Made by a program: the position numbers and the translations under genes. This document shows, one piece after another, positions 7,912 through 17,026 of a stretch of 39,621 nt of DNA. The stretch is from Pseudomonadales bacterium (lineage in GTDB: Bacteria; Pseudomonadota; Gammaproteobacteria; Pseudomonadales; Azotimanducaceae): assembly GCA_028281005.1 (NCBI GenBank), contig JANQKS010000073.1, forward strand, positions 1 through 39,621, in the 5' to 3' direction. Under the pieces are notes generated by a model, which saw nothing but the letters and a program-made list of their open reading frames with translations, was not told where the DNA came from and searched no databases. How positions within the stretch are numbered: position 1 is the stretch's first letter; every line of letters begins with the position of its first letter.

Positions 7912-8877
7912 GTGCGGCTTGCAGATTATGTCGTCAGCTACAGTTTGCAGATCAACAACCGTTGCCTGCGCTATTTAGCCGAGTGCGATGCGCACGGCAC
8001 GGTGGCGGATGGCAATGACATTGTTGCCTCGGAAGCGCACACGGTTTACGCCGAGAATCTGCTGGCCCGCGACAGCCGCCGCTTGGTCAGCATGTGGTCG
8101 CTCATGCAACCGGGTTGGAAAGAAACAGATCCCGCCATTGGTCAACATGTGGAGGCGTTGCTGCAAGCGACCCGCGCATTAACCGAAGCGTCCAGTGCCA
8201 GAAGGCTGGCGCTTCGACTGGCCAACGTCGCCGCTGAAGACCATGAAGCCGAAGCGATTTTACGTGTAGCGCGTTGTTTGCCTGCGGATGTACCGCTGAC
8301 TTGGGATGTGTTGAATGAGCAGTTTACCGACGACAGCCATTTCTGGCGCAGCTCGGCTAGCTTCCGCTCACTGCAAGACATCGTGGTGCAGCAACGGGTG
8401 GTGCGCAGCTATCGCAAGGCGTTTCGACAAGCGGAATTGTTGCCCTCAGAGGATGTGCACAAGTGGCTATCAAACCACGGCGGCAACTTGCACCGCTGGG
8501 TGCAACTGGCAGCCCACCAATTGGAACTTCTGCGTCCTGGGCTGTCTGACAAAGGTAAGGCGCAACTTTGGTATCTGGACAAAATGGCCGACACTTTGCG
8601 CACACGGGCCGGTTTGCAAGAACTGCAACAGGCGACCTGGGAAGTGGATGTCAAGAAAGCTGCGGCCAAATTAGTCAGCCGCTACGTTGAACAACAAATC
8701 AACAAAATGGACAAACGCATTGTGCGTTTGGCAGACGGGTGTTTTAGCAGCAAACCCAAACGTATGGACGACCTCACCCATGCTGCGGTAGCAGCCCTAG
8801 GTCTTGGCACAGTGAGTTTAATGCCGGCAACAAACCCCAACCACAATGCGCGTGACACGGAAGACAATTATGGCTAA
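7912..8877 (+). CDS. Divergent CHAD-like alpha-helical protein
   Basis: A 321-residue, His- and Arg-rich, predicted all-helical protein without signal peptide or membrane segment. The central region around residues 160-245 (VVRSYRKAFRQAELL, HKWLSNHGGNLHRWVQLAAH, LELLRPGLS, LDKMADTLRTRAGLQEL) follows the spacing of the second half of CHAD domains (conserved histidine alpha-helical domain), which bind polyphosphate or phosphate-rich ligands. The match is weak and I did not identify it by database. The start is GTG, with GGGAG at 7900-7904 seven nucleotides upstream. Its stop overlaps the start of the selenoprotein gene by 8 bp, making it the first gene of the long plus-strand array. A cytoplasmic role is likely. 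Confidence 0.7.
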   Translation: MRLADYVVSYSLQINNRCLRYLAECDAHGTVADGNDIVASEAHTVYAENLLARDSRRLVSMWSLMQPGWKETDPAIGQHVEALLQATRALTEASSARRLALRLANVAAEDHEAEAILRVARCLPADVPLTWDVLNEQFTDDSHFWRSSASFRSLQDIVVQQRVVRSYRKAFRQAELLPSEDVHKWLSNHGGNLHRWVQLAAHQLELLRPGLSDKGKAQLWYLDKMADTLRTRAGLQELQQATWEVDVKKAAAKLVSRYVEQQINKMDKRIVRLADGCFSSKPKRMDDLTHAAVAALGLGTVSLMPATNPNHNARDTEDNYG

Positions 8878-9451
8878 CAGGCGACAAGCGGCCACACCTC
8901 TGGGCTTGCTGATGATCGTGTTGTTGCTGAGCCATAACGCTGTCGCCCAGGACTATGCCGGCGCATGGGGCCCTGCGTTGGGCAGCACGCTGCCGGCGCT
9001 AGAGGCACCGGACCAAGCGGGCAACCCTCGTTCCCTGGATGACCTTGCCGGTGAGCAGGGATTGTTGTTGTTTCTAGTCCGCTCGGCGGACTGGTGACCT
9101 TATTGCAAACACCAGTTGGTCCAACTGGAATCATGGCGTGAGAAATTTGCCGCAGCGGGTGTCAATGTGGCGGGTATGACATACGACAGCCTGGAGGTAC
9201 TCAGTGCATTTCATCTGGAGCAACAATTGAATTACCCATTGCTGCAAGATCAGGACGCCAAACATGTCAATGCCTTCGGCGTTCGCAATGAGGAATACGC
9301 TCCCGGGCATGGCGCTTACGGCATTCCTCACCCCGGCATTTTTTACGTGGGCCCGGACGGAAAAATACGCGCCAAGTATGCGGTACCTGGTTACAAACAA
9401 CGCCCGCCATTTGATCGGCTGTTTGCAGACGTGGAGAGGCTAACCCAGTAA
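8870..9451 (+). CDS. Exported thioredoxin-fold selenoprotein (Sec at UGA 9095-9097)
   Basis: Read through one in-frame TGA (9095-9097), this is a continuous 193-residue AhpC/TSA-thioredoxin-fold protein. Residues 1-30 form a signal peptide (core LGLLMIVLLLSHNAVA), so the protein acts in the periplasm. The fold starts at LGSTLPALEAPDQAG; the active site is SADW-U76-P-Y-C79-K, where related proteins carry CPYC or CPFC, so UGA falls exactly on the redox cysteine. After the TGA, homology continues without frameshift through HQLVQLESWREKF, VAGMTYDSLEVLSAFH, and HPGIFYVGPDGKIRAKY. A SECIS-like hairpin follows at 9112-9128. The start ATG has GGAAG six nucleotides upstream and overlaps the CHAD-like gene. 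The alternative, a nonsense mutation, is less likely because the codon is TGA at exactly the redox position. A role in thiol-disulfide or peroxide chemistry is inferred. Confidence 0.85.
9112..9128 (+). promoter_or_regulatory. Candidate bacterial SECIS hairpin
   Basis: CCAGTT (9112-9117) pairs perfectly with AACTGG (9123-9128) around a GGTCC loop. The loop G lies 20 nt after the UGA, within the spacing known for bacterial SECIS elements. The loop resembles the GGUCU of Escherichia coli fdhF, where the GU is contacted by SelB. The hairpin is within the coding sequence, as is usual in bacteria. Confidence 0.75.
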
Positions 9452-9505
9452 CAGTGCCGGTGTGGTTGCTGTTGTAGTAACCCGCCGTTCTAGATCCGCC
9501 GCACC

Positions 9506-10381
9506 ATGACCAGTCGCTGTATAAAAAAATCGAAAGTCTCTATTCTGGCTGTGCTGCTGGGCGTTAGTTTGTCCTCAGGCTGTAGCACTTTGATCAGCTC
9601 AGTCACGCAGAGCTTTGCCGAAGATTTGTCCGCCGCCATTTTAAATAACCCGGACTTGGCGATGGTGCGTGATGGCGCACCTTCTTATCTCATTCTGGTT
9701 GATAGTTTGGTGGCGCGCGCACCGGAAGATGCCTTTATGCTGCAGCAATCGGCTCGCTTGCATTCAGCTTATGCGGCGGCCTTTGTGGTGGATGAAGAAC
9801 GGGCCAAACTCCTGCATGCCAAAGCCAAGAGCCAGGCATTAGCATCGGCCTGCCACGGCATGAAAAACGCTTGTGGCTTGGACACCCGCCCCTACCAGGC
9901 GTTTGAACGCTGGGTGAACAAACAAGGGCGGCGTAGCGTGCCGCAAATGTATGATCTGGCGGTCAGCTGGGCCGGTTGGATCCAGGCCAACAGTGATGAC
10001 TTTAGCGCCATCGCGGACTTAGCGCGGGTCAAGGCGTTGATGTTACGCGTCTCCGAAGTGCAGCCGGGTTATGATGATGGCGGCGTATTTTTGTATTTAG
10101 GGGTCATGGAAACCTTGTTACCGCCCGGTATGGGCGGCAAGCCTGACATTGGCCGGCGTTATTTCGAGCAGGCCATCGAGCTTTCGCAAGGTGCTAATCT
10201 CATGGCCAAGGTGATGTATGCCGATCAATACGCGCGCTTGATGTTCGAGCGTGAGTTGCATGACAAATTGTTGCTGGAGGTACTCGACTCTCCAGTGGAA
10301 GTTGATGGGTTGACCCTGATGAATATGGTCGCCAAAGAACAAGCTCAAACTCTCTTGGATAGTGCAGATGATTATTTCTAA
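9506..10381 (+). CDS. TRAP-associated TPR lipoprotein TatT
   Basis: A 291-residue lipoprotein of the TatT component family, which forms trimers of TPR-like helical subunits that dock to a TRAP substrate-binding protein (known from Treponema pallidum Tp0956/Tp0957). The signal peptide ends in a lipobox, LSSG-Cys26. Family features include SFAEDLSAAILNNPDLAMVRDGAPSYL, split here as ILNNPDLAMVRDGAPSYL, and the later GKPDIGRRYFEQAIELSQG helix-turn-helix near residues 215-235. Its end overlaps the DctP-like gene by 20 bp (or 14 bp if that gene starts at 10368), so the pair is translationally coupled. It should be anchored to a membrane facing the periplasm. No strong ribosome-binding site precedes this start. 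Confidence 0.88.
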   Translation: MTSRCIKKSKVSILAVLLGVSLSSGCSTLISSVTQSFAEDLSAAILNNPDLAMVRDGAPSYLILVDSLVARAPEDAFMLQQSARLHSAYAAAFVVDEERAKLLHAKAKSQALASACHGMKNACGLDTRPYQAFERWVNKQGRRSVPQMYDLAVSWAGWIQANSDDFSAIADLARVKALMLRVSEVQPGYDDGGVFLYLGVMETLLPPGMGGKPDIGRRYFEQAIELSQGANLMAKVMYADQYARLMFERELHDKLLLEVLDSPVEVDGLTLMNMVAKEQAQTLLDSADDYF

Positions 10382-11399
10382 AGCAAAGATCAATCGCAGT
10401 TTTGTACGTTTTACCCTGCTCGCGGTAGTGCTTGGCTGCCTGCCTGTCAGCCACGCTGCCACGCTTAAAATTGCCACTTTGTCGCCGGAAGGTTCAAGCT
10501 GGATGAAGGTGCTGCGAAAGCACGGCAAAGCGGTAGAGCAACGTACGGATGGCGCGGTGAAGTTCAAATTCTACCCGGGCGGGGTCATGGGTGATGACAA
10601 AGCTGTGCTGCGTAAGATGCGGGTAGGGCAATTGCACGGCGCGGTGCTCACCTCCGGCGGCATGGTGCAGGCTTATCCGGACATCGCGTTGTACAACATG
10701 CCGATGTTGTTTCGCGGCAACGAAGAGATCGACTTTGTACGTCAAACGTTGGATGACAAGTTGATGGCGGGCCTGCGAGACAACAAATTTGTTGGCTTTG
10801 GTCTGGCTGAAGTGGGATTTGCTTACCCCATGACCCAGACCCCCACCGCCAGCGTCGATCAAATGCGCCAGCGCAAAGTGTGGACACCGGATAACGACAT
10901 TGGCTCCCTGCGCGCGTTTGAAGCGTTCAAGATTGCGCCCATCCCACTGCCGATATCCGATGTATTGGCTGGCTTACAAACCGGCTTGATCGACAGTGTC
11001 GCTTCACCGCCGATTGGTGCCGTGGCGCTGCAGTGGCATACGCAGGTTCAACATGCGCTGGAGTTGCCGCTGTTGTACATCTATGGTTTGTTGGCCATGG
11101 CGGAGCGTCCGTTTGAGCGGCTGCGCCCGGAGCATCAAGTGATTGTGGCTGAAGAATTTCAGCAAGCTGTGCGCGCCGCGGACGCGACGGCCCGGCGTGA
11201 TCACAATAGCGCCAAAGATGCGCTCGGCAAACAAGGCATACAGTGGCAAACACCGTCGGAGACGGAGTTGACTGAGTGGGTACGTCTGGCGGATGAGGCA
11301 CGCCGAAAACTGATTGAGAGCAACTATGTGTCCGCGGAGTTGTACCAGGAGACCGTCAATTTGCTGAATCAATATCGCGATCGCGGCAGCAGTGGGTAG
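10362..11399 (+). CDS. TRAP transporter substrate-binding protein, DctP/TatP family
   Basis: A 345-residue periplasmic binding protein of the DctP family with a signal peptide (core FTLLAVVLGCLPVSHAA). Mature features are LKIATLSPEGSSWMKVL, FKFYPGGVMGDDKAVLRKMR, LYNMPMLFRG and the ligand-region segment QRKVWTPDND. In most TRAP binding proteins this segment reads K-x-R-x-P, and the Arg binds a substrate carboxylate; here Trp replaces it. That suits the hydrophobic-ligand proposal for TatT-linked TRAP systems, but the ligand is inference. The start may be ATG 10362 or ATG 10368. It is followed with an 8-bp overlap by the small permease. Confidence 0.9.
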   Translation: MQMIISKAKINRSFVRFTLLAVVLGCLPVSHAATLKIATLSPEGSSWMKVLRKHGKAVEQRTDGAVKFKFYPGGVMGDDKAVLRKMRVGQLHGAVLTSGGMVQAYPDIALYNMPMLFRGNEEIDFVRQTLDDKLMAGLRDNKFVGFGLAEVGFAYPMTQTPTASVDQMRQRKVWTPDNDIGSLRAFEAFKIAPIPLPISDVLAGLQTGLIDSVASPPIGAVALQWHTQVQHALELPLLYIYGLLAMAERPFERLRPEHQVIVAEEFQQAVRAADATARRDHNSAKDALGKQGIQWQTPSETELTEWVRLADEARRKLIESNYVSAELYQETVNLLNQYRDRGSSG

Positions 11400-11868
11400 C
11401 AGTCTGCTGACCTTCCTCCGCCGTGTGGAGGAAGCGCTTCTTGCGCTGTTGCTGACAGCCATGATTGGCGTGGCCGCGACCCAAGTGGTGTTGCGGAATT
11501 TCTTCGAAGGGGGCATTTACTGGGGTGACAGCGCGGTCCGCGTCATGGTGCTGTGGGTGGCGCTGCTGGGTGCCATGGTAGCGTCCCGCAAAGATGAGCA
11601 CATCCGCATCGACATTGCCGGCCGTTTTCTCCCCGACACCCTGAAACCTTACGTCAGCCGTATGGTGAGTTTGTTCACCTGTTTTGTGTTGGCGTTGTTT
11701 TGCTGGTACAGCATTGATTTTGTGCGTTACGAGTATGAAGACGGCACCCTTGCCTTTGGTCAGGTGCCGGCGTGGATCTGTGAACTGATCATGCCCATCG
11801 GATCGGGGGTGATGGCGCTACGTTATGCCCTTCTCACGATATGGCCCGAGCGGGGTACTGCCGGTTGA
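11392..11868 (+). CDS. TRAP transporter small permease, DctQ family
   Basis: A 158-residue inner-membrane protein with four hydrophobic helices (about residues 13-35, 46-66, 85-108, 123-146). It has the family motifs VVLRNFFEGGIYWGDSAVRVM and ASRKDEHIRIDIAGRFLP. DctQ scaffolds the large permease in sodium-driven TRAP transporters. The GTG start at 11392 lies inside the dctP-like stop region (8-bp overlap), and the end overlaps the large-permease gene by 28 bp, so the order is P-Q-M with translational coupling. Confidence 0.9.
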   Translation: MGSSLLTFLRRVEEALLALLLTAMIGVAATQVVLRNFFEGGIYWGDSAVRVMVLWVALLGAMVASRKDEHIRIDIAGRFLPDTLKPYVSRMVSLFTCFVLALFCWYSIDFVRYEYEDGTLAFGQVPAWICELIMPIGSGVMALRYALLTIWPERGTAG

Positions 11869-13145
11869 TCTGGTTGGGGGTAGTGGGGTTGGTGTTGATG
11901 GCAGCCGCCGGCGCGCCATTGTTTGCTGTGCTTATGGGTGCCGCGATGCTGGGTTTTTACTCGGTGGACATCGACTTGGCCATCATTGCCATCGAGTTGT
12001 ATCGCATCGTGGATACGCCGCTGCTGGTGGCCCTGCCGTTGTTTACCTTTGCCGGCTATTTGCTGAGTGAAGCTAAAACCTCGACCCGCTTAGTCAATTT
12101 AATGCAAAGCATGTTTGGCTTCTTACCCAGCGGTTTAGCGGTGGTTGGTTTTGTCGTCTGTGCTGTGTTTACCGCGTTAACTGGAGCCTCCGGCGTAACC
12201 ATTGTTGCGTTAGGTGCATTGTTACTCCCAGCCCTGCGGCAAGCGGGCTTTTCGGAACACTACAGCCTCGGACTGGTGACCTCGTCAGGCAGCTTAGGTT
12301 TGCTGTTGGTGCCTTCGGTACCGCTGATCCTCTATGGCATCATTGCCCAGCAGTTGGATGTGGGTGAACCGTTTACCATCGTTGATTTGTTTGTTGCCGG
12401 GATTGTGCCGCTCACAGTGATGCTGGTGTTACTCACAGCGTGGACCCTGTGGATACACCGCGGCGGCAAGATCCCGCGCACCCCGTTCACCTGGCCCGCG
12501 GTGTGGCAAGCCCTAGTCGCCGCGCGCTGGGAATTGCCGTTGCCGTTTATCGTGTTGGGCGGCGTTTTTGGCGGTTTTTTTGCCGTATCGGAAGCGGCTG
12601 CTGTCACGGCCTTTTATGTGCTCATCGCTGAAGTCTTTTTATATCGCGAAATTGAGTTGAAGCGCGTCCCCAAAATCATGGTGGAGTCCATGGTGATGGT
12701 AGGTGGTATTTTGCTCATCTTGGGTATTGCCTTGGCCTTTACCAACTTTCTGGTGGATGCCGAAGTGCCACAACAACTGTTTGAGTTTATGCAGACCTAC
12801 ATTTCCAGCCCGCTGGGATTCCTGCTGCTGTTGAATGTATTGTTGTTGGCGCTTGGCGCAATCCTCGATATTTTTTCCGCCATTGTCATTCTGGTCCCCT
12901 TGTTGTTGCCGGTGGCGGCCAGCTATGGCATTCATCCCGTGCACCTTGGCATTATTTTCCTCGCCAATATGCAAATTGGTTATTTCACACCGCCGGTGGG
13001 TATGAACTTATTTATCGCCAGCTACCGCTTTGATAAATCGCTGCTAGATTTATACCGCGCCACTTGGCCCTTTATGCTGGTCTTGTTAGTGGCCTTGGCG
13101 CTGATCACGTATGTGCCAGCCTTGAGTTTATGGTTTATTACCTAG
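11841..13145 (+). CDS. TRAP transporter large permease, DctM family
   Basis: A 434-residue polytopic inner-membrane protein, the sodium-coupled translocation subunit of the TRAP system. The family is recognised from MLGFYSVDIDLAIIAIELYR, TPLLVALPLFTFAGYLLSEA, the GVTIVALGALLLPAL and SSGSLGLLLVPSVPLILYGI stretches, and the C-terminal NMQIGYFTPPVGMNLFIASY motif. About twelve hydrophobic segments are visible. The start overlaps dctQ by 28 bp; its last codons overlap the MlaC-like gene. Length and motifs are normal. Substrate specificity lies with the binding protein upstream. Confidence 0.93.
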   Translation: MARAGYCRLIWLGVVGLVLMAAAGAPLFAVLMGAAMLGFYSVDIDLAIIAIELYRIVDTPLLVALPLFTFAGYLLSEAKTSTRLVNLMQSMFGFLPSGLAVVGFVVCAVFTALTGASGVTIVALGALLLPALRQAGFSEHYSLGLVTSSGSLGLLLVPSVPLILYGIIAQQLDVGEPFTIVDLFVAGIVPLTVMLVLLTAWTLWIHRGGKIPRTPFTWPAVWQALVAARWELPLPFIVLGGVFGGFFAVSEAAAVTAFYVLIAEVFLYREIELKRVPKIMVESMVMVGGILLILGIALAFTNFLVDAEVPQQLFEFMQTYISSPLGFLLLLNVLLLALGAILDIFSAIVILVPLLLPVAASYGIHPVHLGIIFLANMQIGYFTPPVGMNLFIASYRFDKSLLDLYRATWPFMLVLLVALALITYVPALSLWFIT

Positions 13146-13759
13146 CCGTCACACTTGTCCAGCGCAGCCGCCGCCTTGTGCTGTTGTTGGTAGGCATGGC
13201 GGTGGTCATGGCGACAGTCAGCAGTCATGGCAACGAGACTGCAGGTGCCGAAACCGCCAAAGCCCAGGTGGCTGACTTTCACGCCACATTGCTGCAGGCG
13301 GTCACCCTGCCGCAACACAGTGCCCGAGAAGCAGTGCTGCAACCCAGCATTAACGCGGTGTTTGACCTGCGCAGGATTGCCGCGATCAGCCTCGGCCGCA
13401 CCTGGCGTGGACTGGGCGAGTCCCAACAGCAAACCTTTGTGGACCTGTTGACGACGCTTGTGGTTGCCACCTACGCCGACCGCTTCGACAGAGACAGCGG
13501 CCAGCAGTTTGTCACTGACCGCGTTGAGGCGGTGCAATCTGGTTTTGTCGTCTACACCCGCCTGCTGCGCGACGCTGCGGAAGATGTTTCTCTGAACTAC
13601 TTTTTGCGTAACGACCTTGTGTTTAACGTGGTAGCGGACGGGGTAAGCGATCTGTCACTGAGGCGTGCGGACTACAACAGCATGATCAAAAACCAAGGTT
13701 ATGAAGTGCTGCTGGAGCATATTCGCAAAAAAATTGAGCAAGCCCGGGCCGGCGAATGA
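13130..13759 (+). CDS. MlaC/Ttg2D-family periplasmic lipid carrier
   Basis: A 209-residue protein of the MlaC (Ttg2D, toluene tolerance Ttg2) family; MlaC shuttles phospholipids between outer-membrane MlaA and the inner membrane. A signal peptide (RSRRLVLLLVGMAVVMATV) is followed by the family core: INAVFDLRRIAAISLGRTW, QQTFVDLLTTLVVATYADRF, NYFLRNDLVFNVVADGVSDL and the terminal NQGYEVLLEHIRKKIE. The open frame extends back to 13064, but ATG 13130 leaves a proper signal peptide and only a 16-bp overlap with dctM. Its stop overlaps the MlaA-like start by 4 bp (ATGA). No mlaD/E/F genes are adjacent, so its inner-membrane partner may be the downstream RND protein (inference). Confidence 0.85.
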   Translation: MVYYLAVTLVQRSRRLVLLLVGMAVVMATVSSHGNETAGAETAKAQVADFHATLLQAVTLPQHSAREAVLQPSINAVFDLRRIAAISLGRTWRGLGESQQQTFVDLLTTLVVATYADRFDRDSGQQFVTDRVEAVQSGFVVYTRLLRDAAEDVSLNYFLRNDLVFNVVADGVSDLSLRRADYNSMIKNQGYEVLLEHIRKKIEQARAGE

Positions 13760-14478
13760 TGATGCGCGGGTGGTTGCTGGTCTGCTGCGTCGTGCTGAGC
13801 GCCTGCAGCACCCTCAAAGGTGATGAATTTGCGGTATATGATCCCTTTGAGACCGCCAACCGCACCAGCTTTAACGTTACCGACCGGGTTGACCGTCATG
13901 TGTTGTTGCCGGTCGCTCAAGGCTACGACCGGGTTACGCCCAATTGGCTGCGGCGGGGGGTGCTCAACGTGTTTGTTAATTTGCGCACCATTGGCAGCGC
14001 CGTTAATGGACTGCTGCAAGGTAAACCAGCCGCCGGCGCAACTGACTTGGCGCGCTTGATGATCAACTCCAGCATTGGCGTGTTGGGTTTTTTTGATGTT
14101 GCTTCCGGCTGGGGCTTGCGCTTTCAAGAGGAAGACTTCGGCCAAACTCTGGCGGTTTGGGGCGTAGAGCGCTCGCGCTATATCTATCTGCCATTTTTGG
14201 GGCCCACCACAATACGCGATTTGCCAGGCACACTGTTGCACAGCGCCATGCCGCGATTGATTTTAGGCAGTGATTACCATTGGGGAATCAGCGTCGTCGA
14301 TGTGGTGAGTGCCCGTGCAGATCTCATTACAGCCACACGCGTGCGCGACGCCAGTGCTATAGATCCTTATGCTTTTACGCGGGATGCCTACTATCAGCGC
14401 CGCAAATTCTTAATATTTGACGGCGACCCACCGGTGGAAGATTTTTTCGACGAATTTGAAGATGAGTTCGAAGAATAA
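13756..14478 (+). CDS. MlaA/VacJ-family outer-membrane lipoprotein
   Basis: A 240-residue lipoprotein of the MlaA (VacJ) family, which removes phospholipids from the outer leaflet of the outer membrane. A short signal peptide ends in the lipobox LSA-Cys17. Family motifs are YDPFETANRTSFNVTDRVDR, WLRRGVLNVFVNLRTIGSAVNGLLQGK, the ring-forming RLMINSSIGVLGFFDVASGWGL, EDFGQTLAVWGV and LPFLGPTTIRDLPG. Length is normal. The C-terminus is very acidic (VEDFFDEFEDEFEE). It overlaps mlaC-like upstream by 4 bp and the RND gene downstream by about 17 bp. Direct linkage to a TRAP system is not part of the classical mla operon. Confidence 0.92.
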   Translation: MMMRGWLLVCCVVLSACSTLKGDEFAVYDPFETANRTSFNVTDRVDRHVLLPVAQGYDRVTPNWLRRGVLNVFVNLRTIGSAVNGLLQGKPAAGATDLARLMINSSIGVLGFFDVASGWGLRFQEEDFGQTLAVWGVERSRYIYLPFLGPTTIRDLPGTLLHSAMPRLILGSDYHWGISVVDVVSARADLITATRVRDASAIDPYAFTRDAYYQRRKFLIFDGDPPVEDFFDEFEDEFEE

Positions 14479-17026
14479 TCTGCTGGTGATGTGGGTGACC
14501 TGGGTCACCCGCCAGGCTTGGCTGTGTCTTGGCCTGCTGGCTGTGACCACGGCCATGCTCGGTTGGATTGCTGTTACTCAATTTCGCATGAATTCCGATC
14601 TGAGTGATTTGATTACTCAGAGTGCACCCTGGCGGGCGGATTTTGATCACTTTGAGCAACAGTTTCCCGATCTGGTGCGCACGGCTGTGGTAGTGGTCAG
14701 CGGTGAATCGCTGAAGCAGGTTGAGTTGGCTACCGATCAAGTGGTGACTTATCTGCGAGATAGGCCGGAGTTCTTTACCGCGGTGGCGGCGCCAGGCAGC
14801 GAGATGTTTTTTCGCGATCACGCCCTGTTATACATGGGGCTCGACGACTTAGACGACATGACTGACCGCCTGGCGGAAGCGCAACCGTGGTTAACCGCCG
14901 TTGCACAAGAACCCAGCCTGCGCGGTATTCTGCGCCTCTTAGGCAGTGGGCTTGAGAACGACCCACCGGCGGGATTTGCGCGGGTGCTCGAGTTGCTTAG
15001 CGATTCAGCAGAATCAGTGTTGCGCGGTGAAGACGGCACCATCTGGTGGAGCGACGAGTTGTTTCCGCAGGACGGCACCCGTTATCAACTGGTGTACCTG
15101 AAACCTAAATCCAGTTTCGAGCAGACCTTACCGGATGCGCGTGTTATGCAGGAGTTGCGCCACATGCGTGACAATTTGCAACTACCCTCCGGGGTTCAAC
15201 TGCAGTTCACCGGTGAATTGGCTTTACAGCATGAAGAGATAGAGGCTGCCATGACCGGCGTTGGGATGGCCGGTTGGTTGGTGTTGGTGCTGTTGTTATT
15301 GGTGATGGTGGTTGGCGTGCGTTCCGGCAAGATCATCGCTGCCACTTTTGCCATGTTGGCCATTGGCATTTTATGGACTTCAGCCTACGCCATGTTGACG
15401 GTGGGGGAATACAACACCTTGTCCCTGGTGTTTATCGTCATGTTTTTTGGCCTCGGGGTGGATTTTGCGCTGCATTTTTCGCTGCGTTTTCAAGAATCGA
15501 TTAACCACGAAGGGGTGGATGCGGCGAGCGCCCTATTAACCAGCACGCGCAGTGTTGGTCGCGCCATCACGCTTTGCACGCTAACGACGGCATTGGGTTT
15601 TCTTGGCTTTTGGCCAACAGATTATCAGGGTCTGGCGGATCTAGGTGTGATCAGCGCTGGCGGTATGGTGGTGGCTTGGTTTTTGACGTTTACCTTTTTA
15701 CCGGCGTTTTACGCGGTCTGCGGGCCGCCGCGACCTCACCGCATGGACCTGCTCACTGGCGAGCGCGTGGTGCGCGCCCTCATTGCGCGGCGTCCCTGGG
15801 TCATTACCTGTGTTGTTGTGTTAGCGCTTGCGGGGGCTTACGGCACTACGCGTGCCAGTTTTGATTACAGCGTATTGGCGCTGAAAGATCCCAATTCCGA
15901 ATCCATGCAAGCGTTGCGTACCTTGCAGCGGGAAAAGCTGTCGACGGATTATCAGCTGGTTGTGCTGGGTGAAGCGCAGATCGAAAAGGCAACCTTACAA
16001 CAGTTAGCGGTGGTGGATGAGGTGCGCAGCGCTGCCGACTGGCTGCCTGAGGACCAGCAAGACAAACTCTTCACCATCGGTGATTTACAACTGATGCTGT
16101 GGAGCGCCATAAATCCCCAACACAACCAACAACCTGCGCATCCGCAAGCCTTACGTGCGCGCGGGCAAGATCTGTTGACGCGTCTCGAGGCTGTTTTGTT
16201 AATGCCAAACGCAGCTCCCGACGTTGCGCCACAGACGCTGGAACGGTTTCGTGAGCAGTTGATGGGTATGTTGTCCGCCGCGGATGAACAATGGCTGCAG
16301 TGGCAAGACGGTGTGCTGGAGCAGCTGCTCACTGAATTGGCGTGGATTCGCCGCGCGACCCAGGTGGGTGAAGTGAGTTTCGCTGACTTACCCGGCACGG
16401 TGCGTTCAAGGTTGGTGTCTGCCGACGGCGAGTATTTAAGCATTGTGTTGCCGCAGCACGATATCGCCGATGTGGATGCGCTTTCTGACTTCATTACCGA
16501 GGTGCGGCAGATGGCGCCGCAGGCCACCGGGCGTCCGGTTATAGAATGGGGGGTAGGCGGCATAGTGGTCACTGCTTTTCAGCAGGCCCTGGTATTTGCC
16601 TTGGTCAGTATCACTCTGGTCTTGAGCATCGCGCTGCGCTCCGCTAAAGCGGTGCTGTTGATCATGCTGCCGCTGGCGCTGACTGCAATGATTACGCTGA
16701 GTCTTGGCGTAGTCTTTGGGCTTCCGATTAATATGGCCAACATTTTGGTGATTCCGCTCATATTTGGCCTAGGGGTAGATAATGGGATCCACGTTGTGGA
16801 CCGTTATTTGGGGGAAGGTGATGTTGAACACCTGATGCATTCGAGCACTCCCCGCGCAGTGCTGTTGTCCACCCTCACCACCATTGGCGCGTTTGCGGCG
16901 CTGTCGATCTCACCCCATGCAGGCACCGCCTCCATCGGTCTGCTCTTGGCTATAGCGGTTGGGCTCCTGCTGTTGATTACTTTGTTTGTACTGCCGGTGC
17001 TGTTGACTGCGAGTAAACGCGGGTGA
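14462..17026 (+). CDS. RND-superfamily exporter, HpnN/MMPL type
   Basis: An 854-residue inner-membrane protein with duplicated RND architecture: a membrane helix (about residues 17-38), a large periplasmic domain, a five-helix bundle (about 270-425), another single helix (about 447-467), a second periplasmic domain and a terminal bundle (about 705-850). Sterol-sensing-like segments FFGLGVDFALHFSLRFQES and IFGLGVDNGIHVVDRYLGEG each carry Asp in helix 4, the proton-relay position. Members include HpnN, which moves hopanoids to the outer membrane. The frame opens at 14417, but ATG 14462 gives the usual N-terminus; no strong ribosome-binding site is seen. It probably exports a lipid-like molecule with the adjacent MlaC and MlaA proteins (inference). 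Confidence 0.87.
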   Translation: MSSKNNLLVMWVTWVTRQAWLCLGLLAVTTAMLGWIAVTQFRMNSDLSDLITQSAPWRADFDHFEQQFPDLVRTAVVVVSGESLKQVELATDQVVTYLRDRPEFFTAVAAPGSEMFFRDHALLYMGLDDLDDMTDRLAEAQPWLTAVAQEPSLRGILRLLGSGLENDPPAGFARVLELLSDSAESVLRGEDGTIWWSDELFPQDGTRYQLVYLKPKSSFEQTLPDARVMQELRHMRDNLQLPSGVQLQFTGELALQHEEIEAAMTGVGMAGWLVLVLLLLVMVVGVRSGKIIAATFAMLAIGILWTSAYAMLTVGEYNTLSLVFIVMFFGLGVDFALHFSLRFQESINHEGVDAASALLTSTRSVGRAITLCTLTTALGFLGFWPTDYQGLADLGVISAGGMVVAWFLTFTFLPAFYAVCGPPRPHRMDLLTGERVVRALIARRPWVITCVVVLALAGAYGTTRASFDYSVLALKDPNSESMQALRTLQREKLSTDYQLVVLGEAQIEKATLQQLAVVDEVRSAADWLPEDQQDKLFTIGDLQLMLWSAINPQHNQQPAHPQALRARGQDLLTRLEAVLLMPNAAPDVAPQTLERFREQLMGMLSAADEQWLQWQDGVLEQLLTELAWIRRATQVGEVSFADLPGTVRSRLVSADGEYLSIVLPQHDIADVDALSDFITEVRQMAPQATGRPVIEWGVGGIVVTAFQQALVFALVSITLVLSIALRSAKAVLLIMLPLALTAMITLSLGVVFGLPINMANILVIPLIFGLGVDNGIHVVDRYLGEGDVEHLMHSSTPRAVLLSTLTTIGAFAALSISPHAGTASIGLLLAIAVGLLLLITLFVLPVLLTASKRG

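Follow-up and report, generated by a model that had tools for sequence, protein, structure and literature searches.

The window analysed here, a stretch of 39,621 nucleotides from a Pseudomonadales bacterium, contains a frame that runs from ATG to TAA (8870..9451, + strand) and is interrupted once, by a TGA at 9095..9097 (+), which falls on residue 76 of 193. Is this codon an ordinary stop, or is it translated, and if so as which residue and to what end? We consider, with a probability of about 0.93, that the product of the frame is exported and has a thioredoxin fold, as a member of the peroxiredoxin-like AhpC/TSA family in which UGA at codon 76 would be read as selenocysteine (Sec) through SelB, tRNA-Sec and a downstream hairpin, making Sec76-Pro-Tyr-Cys79 an oxidoreductase site.

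The TGA codon, its homologues and the Sec machinery

When translated through the TGA, the protein matched Pfam AhpC-TSA (PF00578) over residues 38-168 with 94.8 bits (cut-off 26) and Pfam Redoxin with 57.6 bits (cut-off 26.6). The protein context of the site is RSADW-U-PYCKHQLVQL, in which the TGA is the predicted Sec76, first residue of a U-P-Y-C motif, and a TGC at 9104..9106 (+) encodes the partner residue, Cys79. A sequence-only reading of this DNA had placed an in-frame TGA at the first Cys position of a CPYC-like site within one continuous protein. Both points were borne out, since the site reads W-U-P-Y-C, the PF00578 match spans the TGA and, in a 19-row alignment, invariant columns flank residue 76 on either side. 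No NCBIfam family scored above its cut-off for the window protein or for three relatives searched with it.

Seventeen named loci with 46-68% identity were found in metagenome-assembled genomes (MAGs) titled Gammaproteobacteria, Pseudomonadales or Proteobacteria, by a scan that was seeded with peptides of the window protein and reaches near relatives only. The same codon is TGA in all 17. Across the order, 390 genomes were searched by profile (E <= 1e-30, no more than 8 candidates scored in each genome, with misses possible). This returned 41 matches in 39 genomes; 26 of the matches have TGA as the codon for residue 76, and the other 15 all have a Cys codon (TGC or TGT). TGA forms are spread over five family-level groups (f1, f4, f40, f44 and f47), the weakest match (108.7 bits) being the f40 form in genome G368. 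When 369 genomes of the class were searched by profile at E <= 1e-25, the window's own genome was the sole match. A phylum-wide search of 398 genomes yielded 7 further genomes, all 7 with Cys, and because one of these is of the same class the class-wide blank reflects sampling.

Sixty loci were examined, 5 of which duplicate another at the site, leaving 55 distinct rows (40 TGA and 15 Cys); these are related by descent, and the counts are not numbers of independent events. The site region is identical in L022 and L041. The position of Cys79 is Cys in 40/40 TGA forms and 15/15 Cys forms, and the 45 TGA rows among the 60 loci share the motif R[ST]xxWU[PSG][FYIP]C, which outlines the subfamily. 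Inside the matched stretch of the 60 loci the sole in-frame stop is the TGA at the residue-76 codon; the TAA or TAG codons of L049, L050 and L057 come 114-116 codons further on, where the protein ends. The sequence-only reading had proposed aligning homologues at residue 76, and would have been undermined by stops elsewhere in the gene of close relatives. Only TGA or Cys occurs at the position, and no other internal stop was found in the 60 loci. This is the pattern by which selenoproteins are recognised, an in-frame UGA where homologues have Cys.

The genome of the window (5.1 Mb, 135 contigs, 98.67% complete) encodes the machinery for Sec insertion, the complete absence of which would have counted against the proposal. 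Contig C47 carries overlapping selA (TIGR00474, 537 bits) and selB (TIGR00475, 452 bits) genes, followed about 1.4 kb past selB, beyond one gene on the opposite strand, by a tRNA-Sec gene (selC; 71.7 bits, gathering score 47) with the anticodon loop CUUCAAA. The same contig carries selD (276.8 bits, cut-off 125). Across the order, selB scored above its cut-off in 57 of the 390 genomes (3 candidates were scored per genome, and some absences may be misses). It is present in 24/24 genomes with a TGA form, as against 5/15 with a Cys form (Fisher's exact test, p = 4.7e-6; p = 6e-23 for TGA-form genomes versus the other 366; kinship is ignored in both). However, 4 of the 5 Cys-form genomes of f44 carry selB too, and thus selB alone does not predict TGA.

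Two other loci noted in this genome also have an in-frame TGA. The first (L037/L071, C66:58358-58939) is a paralogue of the window protein with a TGA in the context SVDWUPFC. The other (L039, C112:28060-28428) is BCP/PrxQ-like and would be an exported selenoprotein of a different kind, with its in-frame TGA in TSGUTLEC (TxxU, the peroxiredoxin type).

The hairpin downstream of the TGA

A hairpin of the bacterial SECIS type lies at 9112..9128 (+), 20 nt after the UGA, with the stem CCAGUU/AACUGG and the loop GGUCC; in the minimum-energy fold a seventh pair is added and the loop becomes GUC. Folding of a 51-nt segment gave an energy of -12.5 (z = -1.32), which 18 of 200 shuffles equalled, whilst the hairpin on its own has an energy of -7.3, and 41 of the 1170 TGA triplets in the window possess a hairpin at least as stable under the same rule. 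Energy alone was therefore rejected as proof. The sequence-only reading had claimed a 6-bp hairpin with a GGUCC loop at SECIS distance; the structure is present, but taken alone it is weak evidence. A search of positions 8400-9800 against Rfam gave four matches, none close to the gathering score of its family.

Comparison among relatives was more informative. Across the 40 distinct TGA forms, 98.8% of the cells of the six-pair stem are paired, compared with 4.6-44.6% when the stem is slid by 1-3 columns. These forms contain 40 double-changed cells against a shuffled mean of 12.6 (0/500 shuffles as high), with changes on both sides in three pairs and the outermost pair seen as C-G, U-A, G-C and A-U. 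Two of five covariation measures did not exceed the shuffles, namely the count of doubly changed pairs (275/500 shuffles as high) and that of further pair types (324/500). The shuffles ignore kinship; the slid versions allow for it. RNAalifold, unaided, returned the same six pairs. Among the 15 Cys forms, pairing of these columns reaches 73.3% of cells, which equals the shuffled mean. This still exceeds the slid versions (16.7-45.6%), as is expected from the shared Q-L-x-Q-L codons.

The bSECIS rule, as worded in the accessible part of PMC13188914, calls for a loop of 3-9 nt, a stem of 4-16 bp, a start 16-37 nt after the UGA, a G in the first two loop positions and an energy of -7.5 or lower; SECIS practice and newer selenoprotein families are also treated in PMC4607533 and PMC12013277, as far as the consulted portions go. 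The window hairpin conforms either as 7 bp with a 3-nt loop and a spacing of 21, or as 6 bp with a 5-nt loop and a spacing of 20. As to energy, the 51-nt fold passes, and the hairpin alone falls just short if the limit applies to the hairpin alone. A simplified rule (loop of 3-9 nt, 5 or more uninterrupted pairs, a spacing of 16-37, G then G or U at loop position one or two, energy unlimited) was passed by 39/40 TGA forms (L048 fails) and 0/15 Cys forms, with 914/2000 synonymous-codon shuffles and 207/1170 window TGAs passing as controls. With an energy of -5 or lower also demanded, the corresponding figures were 33/40, 0/15, 344/2000 and 99/1170. The high pass rate of the synonymous shuffles (914/2000) indicates that the Q-L-V-Q-L protein motif itself favours a palindrome. 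Because so lenient a rule is permissive, the weight rests on the contrast between TGA and Cys forms and on the covariation. A further contrast concerns the codon that supplies the loop G, which starts with G in 40/40 TGA forms (38 Val, 2 Gly) but in 6/15 Cys forms (5 Ile, 4 Gln, 3 Val, 2 Ala and 1 Glu among the 15; Fisher's exact test, p = 8e-7). The residue encoded here appears to be dictated by the RNA, judging from this pattern of codons.

These results bear on two readings in which residue 76 is not Sec. The TGA could be an ordinary premature stop in a pseudogene, or a sequencing error, leaving a fragment of only 75 residues. TGA does serve as a normal stop in the window, ending 5 of the 17 frames taken as genes, and one genome alone could contain an error. 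However, TGA recurs at the identical codon in 17/17 named relatives, at 46-68% identity, and in 26 of the 41 order matches, there is no other internal stop, and invariant columns flank the site. The conserved position strongly disfavours this explanation, which we regard as extremely improbable. Hardly more credible is the decoding of the TGA as Trp, Cys or another such residue, whether through near-cognate suppression or through an altered genetic code. It draws what strength it has from the fact that the residue at 76 is named from sequence alone. Against it, the 15 homologues that lack the TGA all have Cys, selB occurs in every one of the 24 TGA-form genomes, the covarying hairpin accompanies the TGA forms, and the same normal use of TGA as a stop elsewhere in the window, which lent something to the previous explanation, is here a difficulty. 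True Sec insertion, as originally proposed, is thus supported by the sel genes, by a position confined to TGA or Cys, by the co-occurrence with selB and by the covarying hairpin, and the active site very probably carries Sec at the apparent stop codon.

Sec and Cys forms and the gene neighbourhood

On the tree of the 55 rows the Sec/Cys state requires at least two changes. Three are required on a tree of 61 rows that omits L080, in which the site is masked and the 7 Cys rows from beyond the order serve as outgroup. Within f44, five Cys forms (genus g53) are nested inside Sec forms (g71) and make up a single branch with support 100/99. The TGA form L063 joins this branch with support 96/91 in the outgroup tree and 86/53, unstarred, in the 55-row tree. 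The nested branch looks like a reversion from Sec to Cys in organisms still able to make Sec. Support for the branch leading to the outgroup is low (82/40), and for this reason a first change in the direction from Cys to Sec is no more than suggested. The Sec and Cys versions of one protein in sister genera constitute a natural experiment: the hairpin, and the valine seemingly imposed by the RNA, persist where the residue is Sec and are lost where it is Cys, though 4/5 of the Cys genomes retain selB. In a distinct branch the protein starts with what resembles a membrane anchor, and a DMF..-D.D.FDPG segment lies ahead of the domain; one part of this branch consists of Cys forms (L066-L070, L072-L074, L077 and L079) and another of TGA forms (L075, L076 and L078).

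In the window the start of the selenoprotein gene is overlapped by 8 nt by an upstream gene with no Pfam match (7912..8877, +). A similar gene was found at 7/17 named loci, and Cys18 of its product is kept in 8/8 aligned rows, window included. The next gene downstream encodes TatT, the T-component lipoprotein of a TRAP transporter (PF16811; 9506..10381, +), followed by the solute-binding protein DctP (PF03480; 10362..11399, +), DctQ (PF04290; 11392..11868, +) and DctM (PF06808; 11841..13145, +). The cluster continues with MlaC, MlaA and an MMPL protein (9506-17026 as a whole), and thus places TRAP-T genes beside lipid-transport genes. At 16/17 named loci a same-strand TatT match starts within about 0.5 kb downstream of the selenoprotein gene. 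The exception is L034, which shares with the C66 paralogue a small protein beside the gene; the paralogue is likewise not adjacent to TatT. Among the TGA-form genomes of the order, a set that overlaps the named loci, TatT lies near the gene in 9/24, all belonging to the window's family, f1. Linkage to TatT was accordingly rejected as a general property. The 7 other TGA-form genomes of f1 have TatT elsewhere (6) or not at all (G240). No TatT link was seen for the Cys forms, and the 15 Cys-form genomes are uninformative on this point, none being among the 88 genomes with TatT.

A CX6C pair of cysteines is found in TatT in 22/22 aligned linked rows, window included. It is also found in 29/30 TatT proteins from genomes without the window selenoprotein (best 30 of 88; the 30th aligns poorly). 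CX6C was therefore rejected as a signature of the link, being general in TatT. TatT-type proteins handle hydrophobic ligands. The link suggests a client among the neighbouring periplasmic proteins, and in the window's own clade this client may, by a weak inference, belong to the TRAP-T/lipid-transport cluster. We think it rather doubtful that the exported selenoenzyme is, in this one family, a dedicated redox partner of TRAP-T and the MlaC/MlaA/MMPL cluster, with TatT CX6C as a possible target; it would then keep a periplasmic lipoprotein or lipid-like cargo in the right redox state. Among literature titles, with subscription journals mostly outside the search, none dealt with a selenoprotein and a TRAP transporter or with a periplasmic or exported selenoprotein. 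The conserved TRAP-T/Mla link supplies a first candidate client for selenoproteins of this class, most of which have been assigned their functions by prediction.

Export, chemistry and relation to known selenoproteins

The protein begins like a signal peptide (8870..8947, +), with RR, a hydrophobic stretch and AVA before QD at the presumed cleavage site. Scoring with a simple hydropathy measure placed a hydrophobic stretch of 12 residues upstream of the domain in 53/55 distinct rows, window included (L037 and L080 are below the threshold), a count that may be too high since the stretch was sought from the preceding stop codon onward. Export, which had been claimed from the N-terminus, is supported by both observations and remains a prediction from sequence.

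An AlphaFold model built from the 19-row alignment has a mean pLDDT of 87.9. Its top Foldseek matches in the PDB are peroxiredoxins of the PrxQ/BCP type, closely followed by other peroxiredoxins and by AhpE, which is among the first 50. Together with the Pfam AhpC-TSA match, these predicted-fold similarities would suit a selenoprotein that works mainly as a peroxidase, of the PrxQ/AhpE kind, and not as a disulfide oxidoreductase. However, in the alignment to the peroxiredoxin 5enu the Thr of TPGC is matched by Sec and the peroxidatic Cys by Cys79, whilst the best solved relative by sequence profile is a ResA entry, with UPYC on the CxxC of ResA. Moreover, UxxC members are classed as thiol:disulfide oxidoreductases, by prediction, in the accessible part of PMC9312934. 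Disulfide chemistry is favoured over that of a canonical peroxidase because of these two alignments, and a mainly peroxidatic role seems unlikely, though far less so than a pseudogene.

Under the selenoprotein reading, SelB with tRNA-Sec would insert Sec at UGA codon 76, guided by the hairpin 20 nt downstream, and the product would be exported to the periplasm, where Sec76-Pro-Tyr-Cys79 would act as a selenol/thiol oxidoreductase site. Sec76 would attack a disulfide (or a peroxide), a selenenylsulfide would form between Sec76 and Cys79, and a periplasmic thiol carrier would re-reduce the site. The genome encodes a DsbD-type reductase (DsbD_TM match, 317.7 bits), which could be the supplier of electrons. 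Where gene prediction takes every TGA for a stop, such genes are split, and exported selenoenzymes of uncultivated bacteria are therefore easily missed; several of the relatives found here stem, to judge by their titles, from marine samples.

Lastly, the window protein was compared with known systems. Sec-peroxiredoxins (TxxU) have the fold class and Pfam family in common with it. However, its Sec precedes theirs by three residues, at the Thr of TxxC, with Cys79 at the peroxidatic Cys, and this assignment was rejected. Like ResA-type thiol:disulfide oxidoreductases it appears to be exported and has UPYC aligned with their CxxC, but it scores 30.9 bits against the ResA model (NF002854, cut-off 170). 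Similarity to the SelL-related redox protein (NF040769) is weak, at 38.7 bits against a cut-off of 120. Prx-like selenoproteins that combine an AhpC/peroxiredoxin-type domain with UxxC are described in the consulted parts of PMC1088965, PMC2398784 ('Prx-like 1'), PMC1794560, PMC9312934 and PMC13188914. As described there, they share with the window protein PF00578 (94.8 bits here, cut-off 26), the UxxC motif (here U76-P-Y-C79), a bacterial SECIS-type hairpin and Cys homologues. Compared by description, the window protein fits the class 'Prx-like thiol:disulfide oxidoreductase, UxxC'. By the same descriptions, its subfamily would differ from the published members in the R[ST]xxWU[PSG][FYIP]C outline, the export-type start and, in one clade, the link to TatT. 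What is added to the known class is the outline of this subfamily, the apparent reversion to Cys and the TRAP-T (TatT-DctPQM) cluster just downstream.
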